DNA from: an uncultured Bacilli bacterium
GTDB taxonomy: Bacteria; Bacillota_I; Bacilli_A; RF39; UBA660
Assembly (NCBI GenBank): GCA_947584955.1
Contig: CANPWS010000008.1
Span: forward strand, 1-16,765
Reading direction: 5' to 3'
Length of the DNA stretch: 16,765 nt
Shown: positions 4,648 to 16,765 of the stretch, piece by piece
Layout of the letters: each line of letters begins with the position of its first letter
Position numbering within the stretch: the first letter of the stretch is position 1
Made by a program: the position numbers and the translations under genes
The notes under the pieces: generated by a model
Database searches by the model: none
What the model was told of the DNA's origin: nothing
The model's input: the letters and a program-made list of their open reading frames with translations, nothing else

Positions 4648-5247
4648 ATGAATAAAAAAGTTAATTTTATTATTTCAATTTGTTTAATATTTATTTCTAT
4701 GCTGATGTTATTTTTAAAATATAATTATGTTTCTATTAGCCTAGGAATTATAACTATTTTAATAACTATTTTTATTTATCATAAAAATTTAAGATTATTA
4801 TTATTTTTTATTTTTATATCTATTTCGACTATATTTACAAATATTCTTATTTTACATGATCTTAATAAAGAAACTATTGATATTTTTAAAGACAAAAACT
4901 TTTTATTAGGTACTTTAGAATATGGATATTCTGGAGCTAAATATATTTTTAATGATGATTATACTTATATTAATTATACTACTGATAGTACCTCAAATAA
5001 TTATTGTACTGGTAAATATGAATATAGTTTTGGAGCAAAAAGTAACGATAATAAATTAATTTATGAAGATAAAGACAATTATTATTATACCTTAAATTTA
5101 ACTGAGGATTCTTGTATTATTATGAATGAAAAACTTGATATAACCGAAGATAGAAAAATAGTTGTATCTGTAAATAAAAAAGATAATAATTACATAATAT
5201 TTATAGATTCTGATAATAATGATGCATATATTGTAAATAAAAAATAA
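4648..5247 (+). CDS. Unrecognised membrane protein with three N-terminal helices
   Basis: 199 residues, family not recognised. Three hydrophobic helices lie at about 6-24, 27-44 and 49-70. Residues 71-199 are polar and rich in Tyr, Asn and Asp with alternating strands (YIFNDDYTYINYTTD, KYEYSFG, NYYYTLNL), suggesting a small beta domain at the membrane surface. It contains two cysteines in that domain (Cys120 and Cys155) that could form a disulphide if exported. The ATG follows AGAAGG eight bases upstream. It is a single-gene transcript with its own sigma-A promoter and a terminator shared with the convergent gene. No function can be assigned. Confidence 0.7.
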   Translation: MNKKVNFIISICLIFISMLMLFLKYNYVSISLGIITILITIFIYHKNLRLLLFFIFISISTIFTNILILHDLNKETIDIFKDKNFLLGTLEYGYSGAKYIFNDDYTYINYTTDSTSNNYCTGKYEYSFGAKSNDNKLIYEDKDNYYYTLNLTEDSCIIMNEKLDITEDRKIVVSVNKKDNNYIIFIDSDNNDAYIVNKK

Positions 5248-5279
5248 AGTATTGAAATTAATCTGATACTTTATTTTTT
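5239..5279. terminator. Bidirectional terminator shared by two convergent genes
   Basis: 14-bp perfect inverted repeat (5239-5252 and 5266-5279) with a 13-base loop: AAAAAATAAAGTAT and ATACTTTATTTTTT. Each strand ends in a T-run. Both stop codons lie inside the arms: TAA at 5245-5247 on the plus strand and TAA at 5273-5271 on the minus strand. Confidence 0.88.
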
Positions 5280-6122
5280 ATTATTGCGTTTTTTCTTTGC
5301 TACATCTTTTAAATCTTTGGCAATAGCTTCTTTTATATCATCACTTGTAAATAATACTTTTGTATCTTCTAAAGAAGATGATGTTTTATTTAATTTTTTT
5401 AGCTCTTTTTGAATTTCTTCGAGAGGAATTTGAATTGTCTTTTCTAGATTATCTATTTTTTTATAATCTCTTTTAGCATCTTCTATTTCTTTTAATTTAT
5501 TTTTTATATTTTTCTCTAATTCTTTACTTTTTTTAGTATTATTTTTTAAGCTTTTTAATTCTGAAAGTTCATATTTCATCTGTACTTCTAATTCTTTTCG
5601 TTTTATCTCTTTGGTAAGTGTTACTAATTCTAAAATAAGCAAAGTACCAAATAAAGTTAATATGCATATAGATGTAACTTTACTTGTTTTTGTTAAACTA
5701 TTTAAAAAGCTTAGCGTTATAAAATGATATTTATATTCTCCATAAATACTATCATCATTTATGTATAATTCATTTTCTTCTGTTTTAATTCTAATTAAAT
5801 AATTATTTTCATTTTTCTTTATATCAGTTACTTCGGCTAATTCTCTTTCTTGTTTACTATTTTTATAAACAATTATACTACCTACTTCTAGTTTTTCTAA
5901 ATTAGCTTTTTTAACTAATATTACATCAGTTGATTTTAAATTAGTAAGATTACTATCTTCTCTTATAATAATACTGCTATAACCAAATAGATAAGTATTT
6001 TGTAGTGAAGTATTTTGTAGTATTAACATATAGCAAAATATTGCTAATCCAAATACTAGCAAAACTTCTAATATATTTAATAATGGCTTTCTCACACTTA
6101 CCCTCTTTTCATTTTTATTCAT
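5271..6122 (-). CDS. Signal peptidase I-like membrane protein lacking the catalytic residues, with coiled coil
   Basis: 283 residues. Membrane helix 1 at about 14-34; an exported domain at 45-135 whose pattern STDVILVKKANLEKLEVGSIIVYK (64-87) matches the GD-x-V-x-V...L-x-x-GD-I-I-x-Y core of SipW-type signal peptidase I; helix 2 at about 149-170; then a Lys/Glu coiled coil at 171-250 and a basic C-terminus in the cytoplasm. The expected Ser-Met nucleophile site reads Ser50-Ile51, and the His-Arg dyad region reads ELAEV (94-98) with no His, so it is probably not a peptidase. The ATG overlaps the gmk stop (ATGAATAA) without an SD. A GTG nine codons later (6095) has an AGAGGG SD and is a good alternative start. 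Function unknown. Confidence 0.62.
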   Translation of the reverse strand: MNKNEKRVSVRKPLLNILEVLLVFGLAIFCYMLILQNTSLQNTYLFGYSSIIIREDSNLTNLKSTDVILVKKANLEKLEVGSIIVYKNSKQERELAEVTDIKKNENNYLIRIKTEENELYINDDSIYGEYKYHFITLSFLNSLTKTSKVTSICILTLFGTLLILELVTLTKEIKRKELEVQMKYELSELKSLKNNTKKSKELEKNIKNKLKEIEDAKRDYKKIDNLEKTIQIPLEEIQKELKKLNKTSSSLEDTKVLFTSDDIKEAIAKDLKDVAKKKRNNKK

Positions 6123-12770: not shown

Positions 12771-12790
12771 ATAGTACCAAATATTTTTTT
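12754..12790 (+). terminator. Intrinsic terminator of engB
   Basis: 12754-12766 pairs with 12776-12788: AAATATCTGGT and ACCAAATATTT plus flanking A-T pairs, with one C-A mismatch, followed by T to 12791. The loop is 9 bases and contains the engB stop codon (TAA 12768-12770). Confidence 0.72.
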
Positions 12791-12815
12791 TATCATAAAT
12801 TATTCTAGGTGAATT

Positions 12816-13301
12816 ATGATTTGTAATATGATAGATGAAAATTTTTATATATTAAAAATTTTTAATGATAATGATAATTTTGATATTTATGATCATGAAT
12901 TTATAAAAGATTTTACAAAAGAATTATTTGATAATATATTAAAAAAATATGATATAAGAGGAGATGTTTTATTTAATATTTATATTGATAATCTTTATGG
13001 TATAATAATTGAAATAACTAGCAATAATGATATTTTATCAGAAGATTTAGTAGAATTAAAAATTAAATTTAACTTAAATATTTCTTTTTTATATGAAGTT
13101 GATTACTTTTATTTATATGAAAACAAATTAACAAATCAAAATATTTATTTTTATAAAGATAAATTTTATTTAGAAATTATTAATGAAATTAATAGAAAAG
13201 ATTATTTAGAATTATTAGATAACTCTTATGTTATTTACGATAATCAAATAAATGATATTGTTAATAATGGAATAAAGCTAGCAAATATTAAACTTATGTG
13301 A
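12816..13301 (+). CDS. Unrecognised 161-residue protein between engB and der
   Basis: 161 residues, no signal peptide or membrane helix, extreme in Asn, Asp, Ile, Tyr and Phe. The likely fold is mixed alpha/beta; the middle (DVLFNIYIDNLYGIIIEIT, about 50-68) reads as two adjacent strands. No cysteine or histidine cluster or catalytic motif was seen. The ATG follows AGGTG with a short four-base spacer; an in-frame ATG four codons later lacks an SD. It sits alone after the engB terminator, and its TGA stop forms the TG of the der extended -10. Function unknown. Confidence 0.68.
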   Translation: MICNMIDENFYILKIFNDNDNFDIYDHEFIKDFTKELFDNILKKYDIRGDVLFNIYIDNLYGIIIEITSNNDILSEDLVELKIKFNLNISFLYEVDYFYLYENKLTNQNIYFYKDKFYLEIINEINRKDYLELLDNSYVIYDNQINDIVNNGIKLANIKLM

Positions 13302-13333: not shown

Positions 13334-14653
13334 ATGAAAATGCCTACAGTAGCACTTGTTGGAAGACCTAATGTTGGTAAAAGCACTATTTTTAATAGAA
13401 TAGCACATAAAAAAGTTTCTATTATTGAAGATACACCTGGAGTTACAAGAGATAGGATTTATATCGATGTATCATACAACGGCTATAAATTTCATTTAAT
13501 TGACACTGGAGGAATTGATGTTAGTAATGAATTATTTAATAATGAAATAAAATTACAAGCTTCCATTGCTATTGATGAAGCTGATGTTATTGTTTTTATT
13601 GTAGATGGAAAAGAAGAACTAACACAAAATGATTATGTAATTAGAGATATGTTAAAAAAAACTGGAAAAAACATTATAGTAGCAGTTAATAAAATAGATA
13701 ACAAAAAAGATGAAGACTTTATTTATAATTTTTATGAATTAGGTTTTGATAATATAATTGGTATAAGTGGAGAACATAATATAGGAATTAGTAATTTACT
13801 TGATACAATATGTTTATATTTTCCAAAACTTGAAAATGAAAATGTTGAAGAAGATGACAATATCGTAAAATTTGCGATTATTGGTAGACCTAACGTTGGA
13901 AAAAGTAGTCTTTTAAATGCTTTATTAAATGAAGAAAAAGCTATTGTTTCTGATACTCCTGGTACTACACGAGATGCTATTGATACTAAATTTACTTACG
14001 AAAAAGAACCATATATTGCAATTGATACTGCTGGTATTAGAAAACGTGGTAAAATTTATGAATCAATTGAAAAATACAGTGTTTTAAGAAGTATTAAAGC
14101 AATAGAAAGATGTAATGTATGTGTTCTTGTTATAAATGCTATGGAAGGTATCATAGAACACGATAAACATATTGCTAGCTATGCGTTAGAAAACGGCAAA
14201 CCAATGGTAATAGTTGTTAATAAATGGGATATGGTTCAATCTGAAACTGATATTGCAAGTTTCACTAAAAAGGTTAGAAATGAATTTCAATTTTTATCAT
14301 ATGCTCCGATAGTATTTTTATCTGCTAAAACTAAAAAAAGAATTCATACCTTAATGCCAGAAATTAAAAAAGTATATGAAAATTCAAAAAAAGAAATTAA
14401 GACAAGTATTTTAAATGATGTAATTAGAGACGCTGTTTTGTTAAATGCTCCTCCATCATATAAAGGAAAAAGATTAAAAATATATTTTGTATGTCAAAAT
14501 GGGACATGCCCTCCAACATTTACTTTTAATGTAAATAGTAAAGGATTAGTACATTTTTCATACGAGAGATATTTAGAAAATAAAATAAGAGAGAATTTTG
14601 ATTTTGAAGGTTCACCAATAGTAATTAAATTTAAAAATAAAGGAGAAAATTAA
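13334..14653 (+). CDS. der: Der (EngA), double-GTPase ribosome-assembly factor
   Basis: 439 residues, normal length. GTPase domain 1: GRPNVGKS (10-17), DTPGVTRD (33-40), DTGG (57-60), NKID (119-122). GTPase domain 2: GRPNVGKS (184-191), DTPGTTRD (207-214), DTAG (231-234), NKWD (296-299), SAK (330-332). The C-terminal KH-like domain spans about 355-435. The tandem G domains are unique to Der. It acts in late assembly of the 50S subunit. The SD is GAGGTGAT. Its stop codon shares one base with the next ATG (TAATG), so the two are coupled. Confidence 0.97.
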   Translation: MKMPTVALVGRPNVGKSTIFNRIAHKKVSIIEDTPGVTRDRIYIDVSYNGYKFHLIDTGGIDVSNELFNNEIKLQASIAIDEADVIVFIVDGKEELTQNDYVIRDMLKKTGKNIIVAVNKIDNKKDEDFIYNFYELGFDNIIGISGEHNIGISNLLDTICLYFPKLENENVEEDDNIVKFAIIGRPNVGKSSLLNALLNEEKAIVSDTPGTTRDAIDTKFTYEKEPYIAIDTAGIRKRGKIYESIEKYSVLRSIKAIERCNVCVLVINAMEGIIEHDKHIASYALENGKPMVIVVNKWDMVQSETDIASFTKKVRNEFQFLSYAPIVFLSAKTKKRIHTLMPEIKKVYENSKKEIKTSILNDVIRDAVLLNAPPSYKGKRLKIYFVCQNGTCPPTFTFNVNSKGLVHFSYERYLENKIRENFDFEGSPIVIKFKNKGEN

Positions 14654-15171
14654 TGTATATAGATAAAAAATTAATTGAATTTTTCAAAAAACATAATTTA
14701 TATGAAGAAGAGATATTCGATTATATAAGAAATAATTTAACACTAGTTGATTATGATGATGATACCCAAAACATTTTCATTGGTTGTTATTATATGACAG
14801 ATAAAAAAAACATATTAAAAGGATTTAAATTATATGTTCCACGTATTTATAATGATATAACGATGATAGTAAGTATTCATGAATTTGTACATGCTATAAT
14901 TTCTTATAAATATTTAGGAAAAAAATATATTGTCGATATAACTTCTGAGGCACTACCTATGTTATATGAAAAAATATACATAAATGAACATCCTTACCCA
15001 GCTTTAATAAAATATGGAAATAAATTAGATGAAATGATTAATACTAATAATAATGATAGTTATTCATTTGGATTAAATGTTAGAGATACATTAATTGAAA
15101 ATTATGATTATAATATTGAAAATTCTAAAAAACTAATAAAAAATTTAAAAAAGAATAGGAAGAAGGTATAA
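14653..15171 (+). CDS. Small putative zinc metallopeptidase (HExxH), family not recognised
   Basis: 172 residues, soluble. Residues 76-80 are HEFVH in a hydrophobic context (IVSIHEFVHAII), the zincin active-site helix. Glu99 (TSEALPMLYEK), 19 residues after the second His, or Glu106, could be the third zinc ligand as in gluzincins. The resemblance in this segment to M3-type peptidases is only slight, and the protein is far smaller than M3 enzymes. The C-terminus is Lys/Asn-rich. An AAAGGAG SD lies inside the end of der, and the start overlaps the der stop by one base. Substrate unknown; zinc binding inferred from the motif. Confidence 0.68.
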   Translation: MYIDKKLIEFFKKHNLYEEEIFDYIRNNLTLVDYDDDTQNIFIGCYYMTDKKNILKGFKLYVPRIYNDITMIVSIHEFVHAIISYKYLGKKYIVDITSEALPMLYEKIYINEHPYPALIKYGNKLDEMINTNNNDSYSFGLNVRDTLIENYDYNIENSKKLIKNLKKNRKKV

Positions 15172-15174
15172 TAT

Positions 15175-15819
15175 ATGTATAATGAATTAGAAAAGAATTT
15201 AGAAAAAGATAAAAATATGCTTGATAATGCTTTTGAGACTACAAAATCAAAACATGGAGAAGAATTTGCTAAAAAAGGATTAATTAATTATTTTGTATAT
15301 TCTAAAATTTCAGGTATTAGTAGAGATAATAATGCTAGAGAAAATATGACTTTTTTAACAAAAAATAATCCATACATATTAAGTCAAATATTACTTGATT
15401 TTGCTATTTCTTCTTTTATGATTAATAGTATGAAACCAGATATAACAGAAAAAGAAGTATTAGCCTATTTTAATGATAAAGATGAGCTTTTAAAATATGA
15501 TAATGAGACAGTAACCAAAGTAGCGGCACTTGCTTGTACACTTTATCCTGATCAATCATTACTTTTAATAAACAACAATTATTCTATGTATAAATCTTTA
15601 GTTGAAACATTTATTAATGAAAGATATATTAATAATAAAAAAAATGAATTAGATAACTCATTAAGAACAAAATTTATATATTTAAAAAATTCTAACAGAC
15701 CTATGCCTATTAGTAAAGATAGACTTAACTATGCTACAAAAAGAATGACTCAAAATGCCTTAATGTATAATTTTCAAGACTTAAAAGATAATAAAAAATA
15801 TTTTTATAAAAAAAGCTAA
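15175..15819 (+). CDS. Unrecognised 214-residue helical protein, related in motifs to the protein at 6887-8344
   Basis: Soluble, mainly helical, no signal peptide. Motifs in order: SKHGEEFAKKGLINY (25-39), ISRDNNARE (48-56), MINSMKP (82-88) and PISKDRLNYA (178-187). The first three have clear counterparts in the same order in the 485-residue protein; the fourth resembles its ITRRNNAR segment loosely. No catalytic motif or metal cluster was seen. The ATG follows AGAAGG inside the end of the preceding gene, three bases after its stop, so it is the last gene of the der group. A hairpin 5 bases after its stop may end transcription or control spoVIF. Confidence 0.7.
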   Translation: MYNELEKNLEKDKNMLDNAFETTKSKHGEEFAKKGLINYFVYSKISGISRDNNARENMTFLTKNNPYILSQILLDFAISSFMINSMKPDITEKEVLAYFNDKDELLKYDNETVTKVAALACTLYPDQSLLLINNNYSMYKSLVETFINERYINNKKNELDNSLRTKFIYLKNSNRPMPISKDRLNYATKRMTQNALMYNFQDLKDNKKYFYKKS

Positions 15820-15845
15820 CAATAACCTCTTACAATCATATACTA
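15819..15845 (+). promoter_or_regulatory. Sigma-K-type promoter of spoVIF
   Basis: AC at 15819-15820, exactly 16 bases, then CATATACTA at 15837-15845, a full match to the mother-cell sigma-K pattern (AC, about 16 bases, CATANNNTA). Sigma-K control fits the late sporulation role of SpoVIF. The predicted start is about 15851-15853, giving a leader of roughly 13 bases. The -35 consensus is short, so the -10 carries most weight; sigma-E has a similar -10. Confidence 0.6.
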
Positions 15846-15859
15846 TATTGTAGGAGGTT
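15824..15859 (+). promoter_or_regulatory. Hairpin covering the spoVIF SD, with the -10 in its loop
   Basis: 13-bp stem: AACCTCTTACAAT (15824-15836) and ATTGTAGGAGGTT (15847-15859), with one T-G wobble and a 10-base loop CATATACTAT. The whole GGAGG SD is in the 3' arm and the sigma-K -10 is the loop. In read-through RNA the SD would be closed; in RNA started at the local promoter the 5' arm is missing. Four T follow the stem, so it might also work as a weak terminator for the der group. Confidence 0.72.
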
Positions 15860-15864
15860 TTAAT

Positions 15865-16113
15865 ATGGCTTTTTCTGATAATTTTTTTAAAAAAGTTGAA
15901 AAGAAAACCAATGTTGATAAAAATACTATACTTTCTCTAGCAAATAAACTTCAAGGTTCTAATATGAAAGATGAAAAAGTCTTAAGAGAAGTCATTAGTG
16001 ATATTTCTAAAATGACAGGAAGGGAAGTATCTAAAGAAAAGGAACAAAAAATTATTGATGCAATTATAAATGATAAAGTTCCTAATAATTTAGATAAATT
16101 TATCGATGAATAA
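15865..16113 (+). CDS. spoVIF: SpoVIF, stage VI sporulation protein F
   Basis: 82 residues, similar to the family. The N-terminal FFKKVEKKTNVDKNTILSLA, then KLQGSNMKDEKVLREVI and GREVSKEKEQKIIDAIIN, follow the pattern of SpoVIF (PF14069 as I recall it). The protein is soluble and helical. In B. subtilis SpoVIF is made late in the mother cell and is needed for proper coat assembly and mature spores; its biochemical action is not known to me. The ATG follows TAGGAGG, buried in the hairpin at 15824-15859, and a sigma-K-type promoter overlaps. It overlaps the next gene by eight bases (ATGAATAA), so both should be translated together. Confidence 0.86.
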   Translation: MAFSDNFFKKVEKKTNVDKNTILSLANKLQGSNMKDEKVLREVISDISKMTGREVSKEKEQKIIDAIINDKVPNNLDKFIDE

Positions 16114-16744
16114 TTTACTTATCGGAATTGTTGGAAATGAGCAAACCATCGATAATAAAAGTTATGAAGCAATAGTAAGAAATAACCTTAAATATTTAAA
16201 TAATAAATGTAGTTATGTTGGACTTATTGTTTATAATCAATTAGAACATTTTGATACTAATTTATTAGATATATGTGATGGGATTATTTTTCAAGGAGGA
16301 ACAAATATTTATCCATATCATTTTGAGATATTAGATTATGCTATTAATAATAATATACCTGTATTAGGTATATGCATGGGAATGCAAATAATTGGATTAT
16401 ACGCTAATAGGCAATCCGAAGAAGATTTAATTGAAACAGATAATCATTATAATACTAATCATATGATAAACATTAATAAAGATAGTATTTTATGTAAAAT
16501 CTTTGGTAACAATTTAAAAGTTAATTCAAGACATCATTATAAAATTGATCATATTGAAGCACCATTTATAATTAGTGCAAAAAGTAATGATGATGTTATT
16601 GAAGCAATAGAATTTATTGATAATGATAATTTTATATTAGGTCTTGAATTTCATCCAGAAGATATGGAAAATATGGAAGGATTATATAATTATTTTATAA
16701 AATATTGTTTAAAAAGGAAAAATAAAAGGAAACTAAAATTATAG
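16106..16744 (+). CDS. Class I glutamine amidotransferase-like hydrolase (C26, gamma-glutamyl-GABA hydrolase type)
   Basis: 212 residues, slightly shorter than typical PuuD-like enzymes (about 230-250). The nucleophile elbow is GICMGMQ with Cys90; the catalytic partners are His183 and Glu185 in LEFHPED. DGIIFQGG (58-65) and SRHHYKI (141-147) match the C26 substrate-pocket segments (GGxD and NSxHHQ types), although the usual Asp after GG is replaced by Thr-Asn. The family hydrolyses gamma-glutamyl amides such as gamma-glutamyl-GABA. It starts inside spoVIF without a clear SD, so it is probably made in the same late sporulation transcript. The stop codon lies in the loop of the terminator. Confidence 0.85.
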   Translation: MNNLLIGIVGNEQTIDNKSYEAIVRNNLKYLNNKCSYVGLIVYNQLEHFDTNLLDICDGIIFQGGTNIYPYHFEILDYAINNNIPVLGICMGMQIIGLYANRQSEEDLIETDNHYNTNHMININKDSILCKIFGNNLKVNSRHHYKIDHIEAPFIISAKSNDDVIEAIEFIDNDNFILGLEFHPEDMENMEGLYNYFIKYCLKRKNKRKLKL

Positions 16745-16757
16745 TTAGTTTCTTTTT
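16724..16757 (+). terminator. Intrinsic terminator of spoVIF and the C26 hydrolase
   Basis: AAAAGGAAACTAA (16724-16736) pairs with TTAGTTTCTTTTT (16745-16757) with one G-T wobble; the T-run forms the 3' side. The 8-base loop contains the stop codon TAG (16742-16744). Confidence 0.8.
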
Positions 16758-16765
16758 AGTATTAT

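Follow-up and report, generated by a model that had tools for sequence, protein, structure and literature searches.

The window, a stretch of 16,765 nucleotides from an uncultured Bacilli bacterium, carries spoVIF together with several genes on the same strand from which transcription could run into it, der being one of them (Table 1). The spoVIF product scores 76.6 bits against PF14069 (curated cut-off 27) and thus belongs to this family, in agreement with the gene identity given by an earlier interpretation of the same DNA, referred to here as the sequence-only reading. Against NCBIfam NF052662 it scores 74.2 bits, under the equivalog cut-off of 130. The stop of the 214-aa ORF lies 45 nt 5′ of the spoVIF start, and the glutamine amidotransferase gene overlaps the spoVIF end. 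Also present in the window are spoIIID (Pfam), spoIID (NCBIfam, above cut-off) and a spoIIQ-like gene (NCBIfam, below cut-off), indicating that the organism has sporulation genes. B. subtilis spoVIF is included in the coat-gene list of PMC3533761 and appears in the reference list of PMC517825. Among the papers naming spoVIF, judged by title or by the start of the abstract, no study is about its leader.

Table 1. Genes and leader elements at the spoVIF locus (positions in the window).
Feature	Positions	Strand	Basis or remark
der (ribosome GTPase EngA)	13334..14653	+	TIGR03594, 568.8 bits
ORF of 172 aa	14653..15171	+	family match absent
ORF of 214 aa, immediate upstream neighbour of spoVIF	15175..15819	+	family match absent
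AC, sigma-K-type -35	15819..15820	+	spacer to -10 of 16 nt
Hairpin 5′ arm AACCTCTTACAAT, anti-SD	15824..15836	+	pairing exceeds 5′-segment shuffles
Hairpin loop CATATACTAT	15837-15846	+	read from sequence
Sigma-K-type -10 CATATACTA, in hairpin loop	15837..15845	+	near-invariant in 156 leaders
Hairpin 3′ arm ATTGTAGGAGGTT	15847..15859	+	read from sequence, folding
Shine-Dalgarno (SD) AGGAGG, wholly within 3′ arm	15852..15857	+	read from sequence
TTTTAAT, interval from SD to start codon	15858..15864	+	weak T-run; longer T-run here in many relatives
spoVIF, 82 aa	15865..16113	+	PF14069, E 1.2e-21
Class I glutamine amidotransferase (peptidase C26)	16106..16744	+	PF07722, E 1.5e-31

The layout of the spoVIF leader described by the sequence-only reading was confirmed: the SD is enclosed in a 13-pair stem that includes one U-G pair, the -10 is in the loop, and AC is found 16 nt upstream. 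The A of this AC is the final base of the upstream stop codon. A 121-nt region of the window folds with -26 kcal/mol (z = -4.46; none of 200 shuffles equally stable). When the 5′ segment alone was shuffled, z was -5.3, and the pairing probability of the SD with the 5′ arm is 1.00. In four folds of read-through RNA of differing lengths the predicted openness of the SD is at most 0.001, in line with the claim that the SD is closed in such RNA. An Rfam search of 15000-16765 gave zero matches at E <= 1, i.e. no known RNA family was found there, and a terminator scan of the window with a loop limit of 8 did not call the hairpin.

The individual motifs are common in this A+T-rich window. There are 35 CATANNNTA sites (18 on the + strand, 17 on the -), and AC-N15-17-CATANNNTA occurs five times, every time on the + strand. 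Long stems are somewhat enriched across the whole window: stems of at least 13 bp with loops of 3-15 gave 11 entries at five places on the + strand, compared with a mean of 1.70 and a maximum of 5 entries in 20 Markov-1 control sequences. Two other long stems, one between convergent ORFs (5236-5282) and one where the glutamine amidotransferase gene ends (16723-16758), are probably ordinary terminators. Since the CATANNNTA motif is frequent, the argument rests on the combination of features and on the relatives.

Two sets of relatives were used. Set 1 comprised 80 loci from a genome scan (80 of 110 relatives kept) and the window; most of these relatives are labelled 'uncultured Bacilli bacterium' and the others Tenericutes, Firmicutes, Erysipelotrichaceae or Clostridiales, some with animal hosts. 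For set 2, spoVIF was found in 86 of 296 genomes of the class, and two matches that fell under the family cut-off were left unused. A -10 was called in 81 of the remaining 84 loci, the exceptions being L176, L210 and L224 (start misplaced in at least the first two). Pooling the sets and removing six duplicates gave 156 distinct spoVIF leaders, the window included. The -10 and start of L023, L055, L074 and L076 were placed by hand, and the -10 of L185 is misplaced. A leader was taken as hairpin-positive when the 5′-segment shuffle gave p <= 0.05 and the SD paired upstream; L006, L011 and L211 look paired, fall under this threshold and were counted as negative. Gene context and terminators were called with simple in-house scripts, and both the leader counts and the covariation shuffles ignore relatedness.

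The promoter signature is strongly conserved in these leaders. Its fixed -10 positions are C in 155, A in 156, T in 156, A in 156 and T in 153 of the 156 leaders; this constancy is partly due to selection, because the presence of CATA was required for scoring a set-2 leader (in set 1 CATA was located by pattern in 77 of 81 loci and by hand in four). Spacers from AC to the -10 peak at 16 nt (64 leaders) and 17 nt (30), together 94 of 156, and a CA control peaks one base on, at a spacer of 15 (36 leaders), as expected from ACA. B. subtilis sigma-K promoters have AC, about 16 nt and CATANNNTA, and the window conforms to this pattern of AC, 16-17 nt and CATANNNTA. In PMC517825 a gap of 14-16 nt is given between the 5-nt and 10-nt blocks of sigma-K promoters. 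A sigma-K model was matched in all 16 relatives searched, above the curated cut-off in eight; two strong matches were present in 15 of them and one in G012. Unlike B. subtilis sigma-K promoters, most of the 156 leaders place the -10 only 3-7 nt before the SD. In gpsA-linked genomes the distance is 15-19 nt, and the hairpin still encloses the -10.

Judged from the -10, the 5′ end of a sigma-K mRNA in the window would lie at about 15850-15854. The predicted SD openness of this short RNA is 0.11-0.30 when the RNA is cut at 15905 and 0.92-0.94 when it is cut at 15925. Across the 41 hairpin leaders of set 1 the predicted median is 0.67, with 25 of the 41 above 0.5. The very short leader had been offered as a caveat, and this caveat falls away: close spacing is no oddity of spoVIF. 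In genome G016, 20 genes have a CATA element (9-mer) ending 4 nt before the SD, and each of the remaining spacings between -2 and 30 is seen at 0-7 genes; TATAAT lies at scattered distances of about 6-14 nt before the SD. Parts of four other genomes, some sharing orthologues, gave 10 CATA elements at 4 nt and 0-4 at other spacings (counts from loci L105-L149 of G016 and L150-L164). Genes with the 4-nt spacing include sigK and ORFs that we take, by eye, to be YabG-, YabP- and YqfC-like. The mRNAs of these mother-cell-type genes should, from the position of the -10, begin at or beside the SD. With the spacing as a lineage trait, a very short leader is no objection; furthermore, any hairpin that covers the SD at this 4-nt spacing must hold the -10 in its loop.

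Leader structure was also considered as a general property of mother-cell genes and was set aside. On the G016 contig, SD pairing above 0.8 is seen in 13 of 56 genes that have CATA near the SD compared with 102 of 666 others, a weak tendency at most. A second motif of this type occurs in the window at 12776-12816 (AC-N16-CATAAATTA-N4-AGGTG), 5′ of an unassigned 161-aa ORF that lies between engB and der. In G004, G005 and G006, ORFs resembling it by eye likewise carry CATA 4-5 nt 5′ of the SD; the 161-aa ORF is a candidate mother-cell sporulation gene.

Pairing that buries the SD is significant in 74 of the 156 leaders, some of which are accounted for by chance at p <= 0.05, and not significant in 82. 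In set 1, shuffling of the 5′ segment alone gave 43 of 81 leaders at p <= 0.05. By a simpler count over a 12-pair span at the SD, at least 9 pairs are Watson-Crick in 80 of 156 leaders; the same test with shuffled 5′ segments gave 15.4 +/- 4.0 leaders (maximum 25, 40 repeats). Swapping 5′ arms between loci gave 35.3 +/- 5.5 (maximum 49) against the 80 observed, and this null was dropped in favour of the shuffles because an arm taken from a relative matches the SD too. In a FastTree phylogeny of the protein the hairpin state changes 28 times, compared with 52.3 times when labels are shuffled. The stems vary in both sequence and register, e.g. TTAACATA..TATGTTAGGAGG (L002), CTTCTACA..TGTAGGAGG (L005) and AAAAGACTTCCT..AGGAGGTCTTTT (L060); the stem of long leaders has the form AACCTTCTCAGAAATCAT..ATGATTTTTGAGGAGG (L172).

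Of 104 loci with AGGAGG or AGGGGG, 70 were used for covariation, the register being set on the SD core alone. Covariation exceeds that of shuffles for the pairs at k = -3, -2, -1, +6 and +7 (p 0.002-0.006, relatedness ignored). Paired changes in the stem with a preserved CATANNNTA, named as a check by the sequence-only reading, are thus found in relatives outside the SD. Where a G of the 3′ arm faces a base other than C, this base is T in 81, A in 19 and G in 4 cases, compared with T 415, A 642 and G 124 in shuffles. A cruder ratio of U-G to A-C, 96:10, is little different from that of shuffles, 467:75. The preference for T over A indicates that pairing is kept in RNA of this strand, and SD pairing thus appears to be selected in RNA of the spoVIF strand. 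In long RNA, predicted SD openness is below 0.2 in 36 of the 41 hairpin leaders of set 1.

A T-run of at least 4 within 7 nt after the SD is present in 62 of 74 hairpin leaders compared with 17 of 82 others (Fisher 7e-16); among other AGGAGG genes at these loci it is seen in 2 of 50. On the same tree of this short protein the link shrinks: in 28 independent pairs the hairpin member has the longer T-run in 19 and the shorter in 7, with 2 ties (p 0.03). T occupies k = 8 in 65 and k = 9 in 64 of the 70 loci; pairing at these two positions is not clearly above shuffles (p 0.06 and 0.40). Hairpins and separate upstream terminators tend to exclude each other: a separate terminator was called in 3 of 74 hairpin leaders compared with 22 of 82 others (p 1e-4), the rate of such calls in shuffled segments being 0.6%. 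The T-run after the stem and this exclusion suggest that termination is at least part of the job of the hairpin.

Gene context was also compared. The hairpin is present in 1 of 11 leaders with a divergent neighbour and in 68 of 136 with a tandem one (p 0.01); a looser first count gave pairing in 2 of 9 divergent loci. Tandem leaders with a hairpin have a median gap of 47 nt to the upstream gene; where a separate terminator is present instead, the median is 71 nt (p 3e-7). Forty-seven of the 82 leaders lacking the hairpin are tandem and have no separate terminator called either. Their median gap is 44 nt, equally short, so that a barrier is not essential everywhere; in these leaders read-through is tolerated or otherwise blocked. 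The gene upstream of hairpin loci varies, being der in many, gpsA in three tested (L178, L217, L234), a Wzy_C protein gene (L057), an HTH protein gene (L042) or small ORFs (L060, L166), so that the element seems to go with spoVIF. Of the 722 SD-bearing ORFs on the 891-kb G016 contig, 6 combine significant SD pairing and a T-run of at least 4, and spoVIF is one of them. Separate terminators were called at 10 of 17 tandem mother-cell-type genes and at 143 of 409 others (p 0.07).

The hairpin, the promoter signature, the covariation, the RNA-strand bias, the T-run and the exclusion with separate terminators can be read directly from the sequences. From these we infer use of the promoter by sigma-K, its start site, termination and an effect on translation. 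We consider it probable that the leader is one compact element that blocks read-through, in which a terminator-like hairpin carries the sigma-K promoter in the loop and the SD in the 3′ arm. The T-run between the SD and the start codon would be the U-tract of the hairpin. Read-through RNA carries both arms, and the hairpin would end it just before the start codon; where polymerase passes the hairpin, the RNA would keep its SD closed. Sigma-K RNA would start beyond the 5′ arm: in the window at the SD or adjacent to it, and in long-leader lineages before the 3′ arm. Without the 5′ arm, this RNA could neither terminate nor close its own SD. Since the T-run of the window is weak, SD closing may outweigh termination there. 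A wider form of this proposal is a tentative one, somewhat short of even chances: in many Bacilli the spoVIF hairpin would act as a double lock that both terminates and closes read-through RNA and is bypassed solely by the sigma-K promoter in its loop, being rebuilt with new stems and registers, following spoVIF as neighbours change, and riding on a lineage trait of mother-cell mRNAs that begin at the SD.

The sequence-only reading had proposed a translation switch, in which a full read-through RNA has its SD closed and sigma-K RNA without the 5′ arm is translated. The geometry, the covariation, the RNA-strand bias and the read-through context speak for such a switch, as do the predicted closing of the SD in long RNA, the weak T-run of the window, the 12 of 74 hairpin leaders in which a T-run of at least 4 is absent, and the same logic known from phage T4 gene e and I-TevI. 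As a purely translational device it is unlikely, because it leaves the prevalent T-run and the T's at the weakly paired positions k = 8-9 unexplained, and it accounts less well than termination for the exclusion with separate terminators. The same reading had named a promoter kept without pairing as evidence against the switch. This was found in part: significant pairing is absent in 82 of 155 relatives, including the 47 tandem ones described above, and present in 74 of the 156 leaders.

The hairpin could instead be an ordinary terminator of the upstream operon fitted into a short gap, with SD occlusion and the loop promoter as by-products of compaction. The -10 and the SD are 4-6 nt apart, and the G-rich block of this area is the SD itself; the T-run, exclusion and gap data, like the close spacing of -10 and SD in relatives, would suit this explanation. 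We regard it as rather unlikely, given that the hairpin stays on spoVIF behind differing upstream genes and occurs also with long leaders, where other placements are possible. Dyad symmetry about the -10 would suit a repressor site, i.e. a DNA palindrome for a regulator (GerE, SpoIIID or similar). That the structure is such an operator, or due to chance, is very improbable: pairing stays while stem sequence and register change, T beats A opposite the G's of the 3′ arm, and the shuffles argue in the same direction. The operator reading was set aside on these grounds.

Read-through RNA of IS10-type transposase leaders folds over the start region and thereby gives protection. There the outside promoters are accidental; the spoVIF element separates neighbouring chromosomal genes. 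A direct precedent is found in phage T4, in which promoters specific to a late sigma factor lie beside or inside SD-closing hairpins. The long early RNA of gene e closes the SD, with synthesis down 100-fold, and RNA from the late promoter, which is without the 5′ part, is well translated (PMC3014915). The I-TevI leader behaves in the same way, and segB and mobE are likened to it (PMC2988022). I-TevII, I-TevIII, segB and Aeh1 mobE are counted as similar, and for soc and 49 a sequestered start region is described (PMC3014915, PMC2988022). As in gene e and I-TevI, the SD of spoVIF would be closed in the long RNA, and a stage-specific sigma factor would start a short RNA without the 5′ part. The window agrees with the gene e type in having an SD predicted to be paired in read-through RNA and promoter RNA that, from its probable start, would be without the 5′ arm. 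It differs in that the gene is a cellular one for sporulation, has a promoter of sigma-K type and a terminator-like T-run, and carries its SD at or beside the probable RNA start. Like an intrinsic (Rho-independent) terminator, the spoVIF hairpin has a stem followed by a T-run in many relatives; unlike one, it has an A+T-rich stem, a 3′ arm that is the SD, a loop that is the promoter and, in the window, a weak T-run. The sequence-only reading knew of no such hairpin merged with a sporulation promoter. The T4 genes supply a promoter-merged case, and for a sporulation promoter inside a terminator or SD hairpin none was found by title in the literature searched, outside which most subscription papers lie.

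If true, the proposal would provide a cellular, developmental counterpart of the T4 late-gene switch, plus termination, in about 36 bases, and would show how small genomes can keep a growth operon apart from a late spore gene at no cost in space. Its signature of a promoter in the loop, an SD in the 3′ arm and a T-run before the start codon can be searched for. The 4-nt peak between mother-cell-type -10 and SD predicts mRNAs beginning at the SD, and initiation on such short leaders is directly testable.

Some further leaders were noted in passing. At a coat-like gene (MFYNDDFRADMPYG...; L094, L099, L249-L252) complementary arms are seen by eye around the -10 and before the SD, with the T-run absent; four of six relatives have this hairpin by eye, and L253 and L254 are without it. 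At a gene starting MIREYSYKN or MVKEYSYKN (L083, L100), ACTTCCATA and TATGG(G)AGGT arms are seen by eye around the -10 and the SD, again with the T-run absent. On C4 of G016, the SD of a gene that starts at 762644 (reverse complement) is overlapped by a hairpin GCCTCACT / AGTGAGG with TTTTTAT directly after it; here a terminator-like stem covers the SD of a gene other than spoVIF, and the CATA element is absent.
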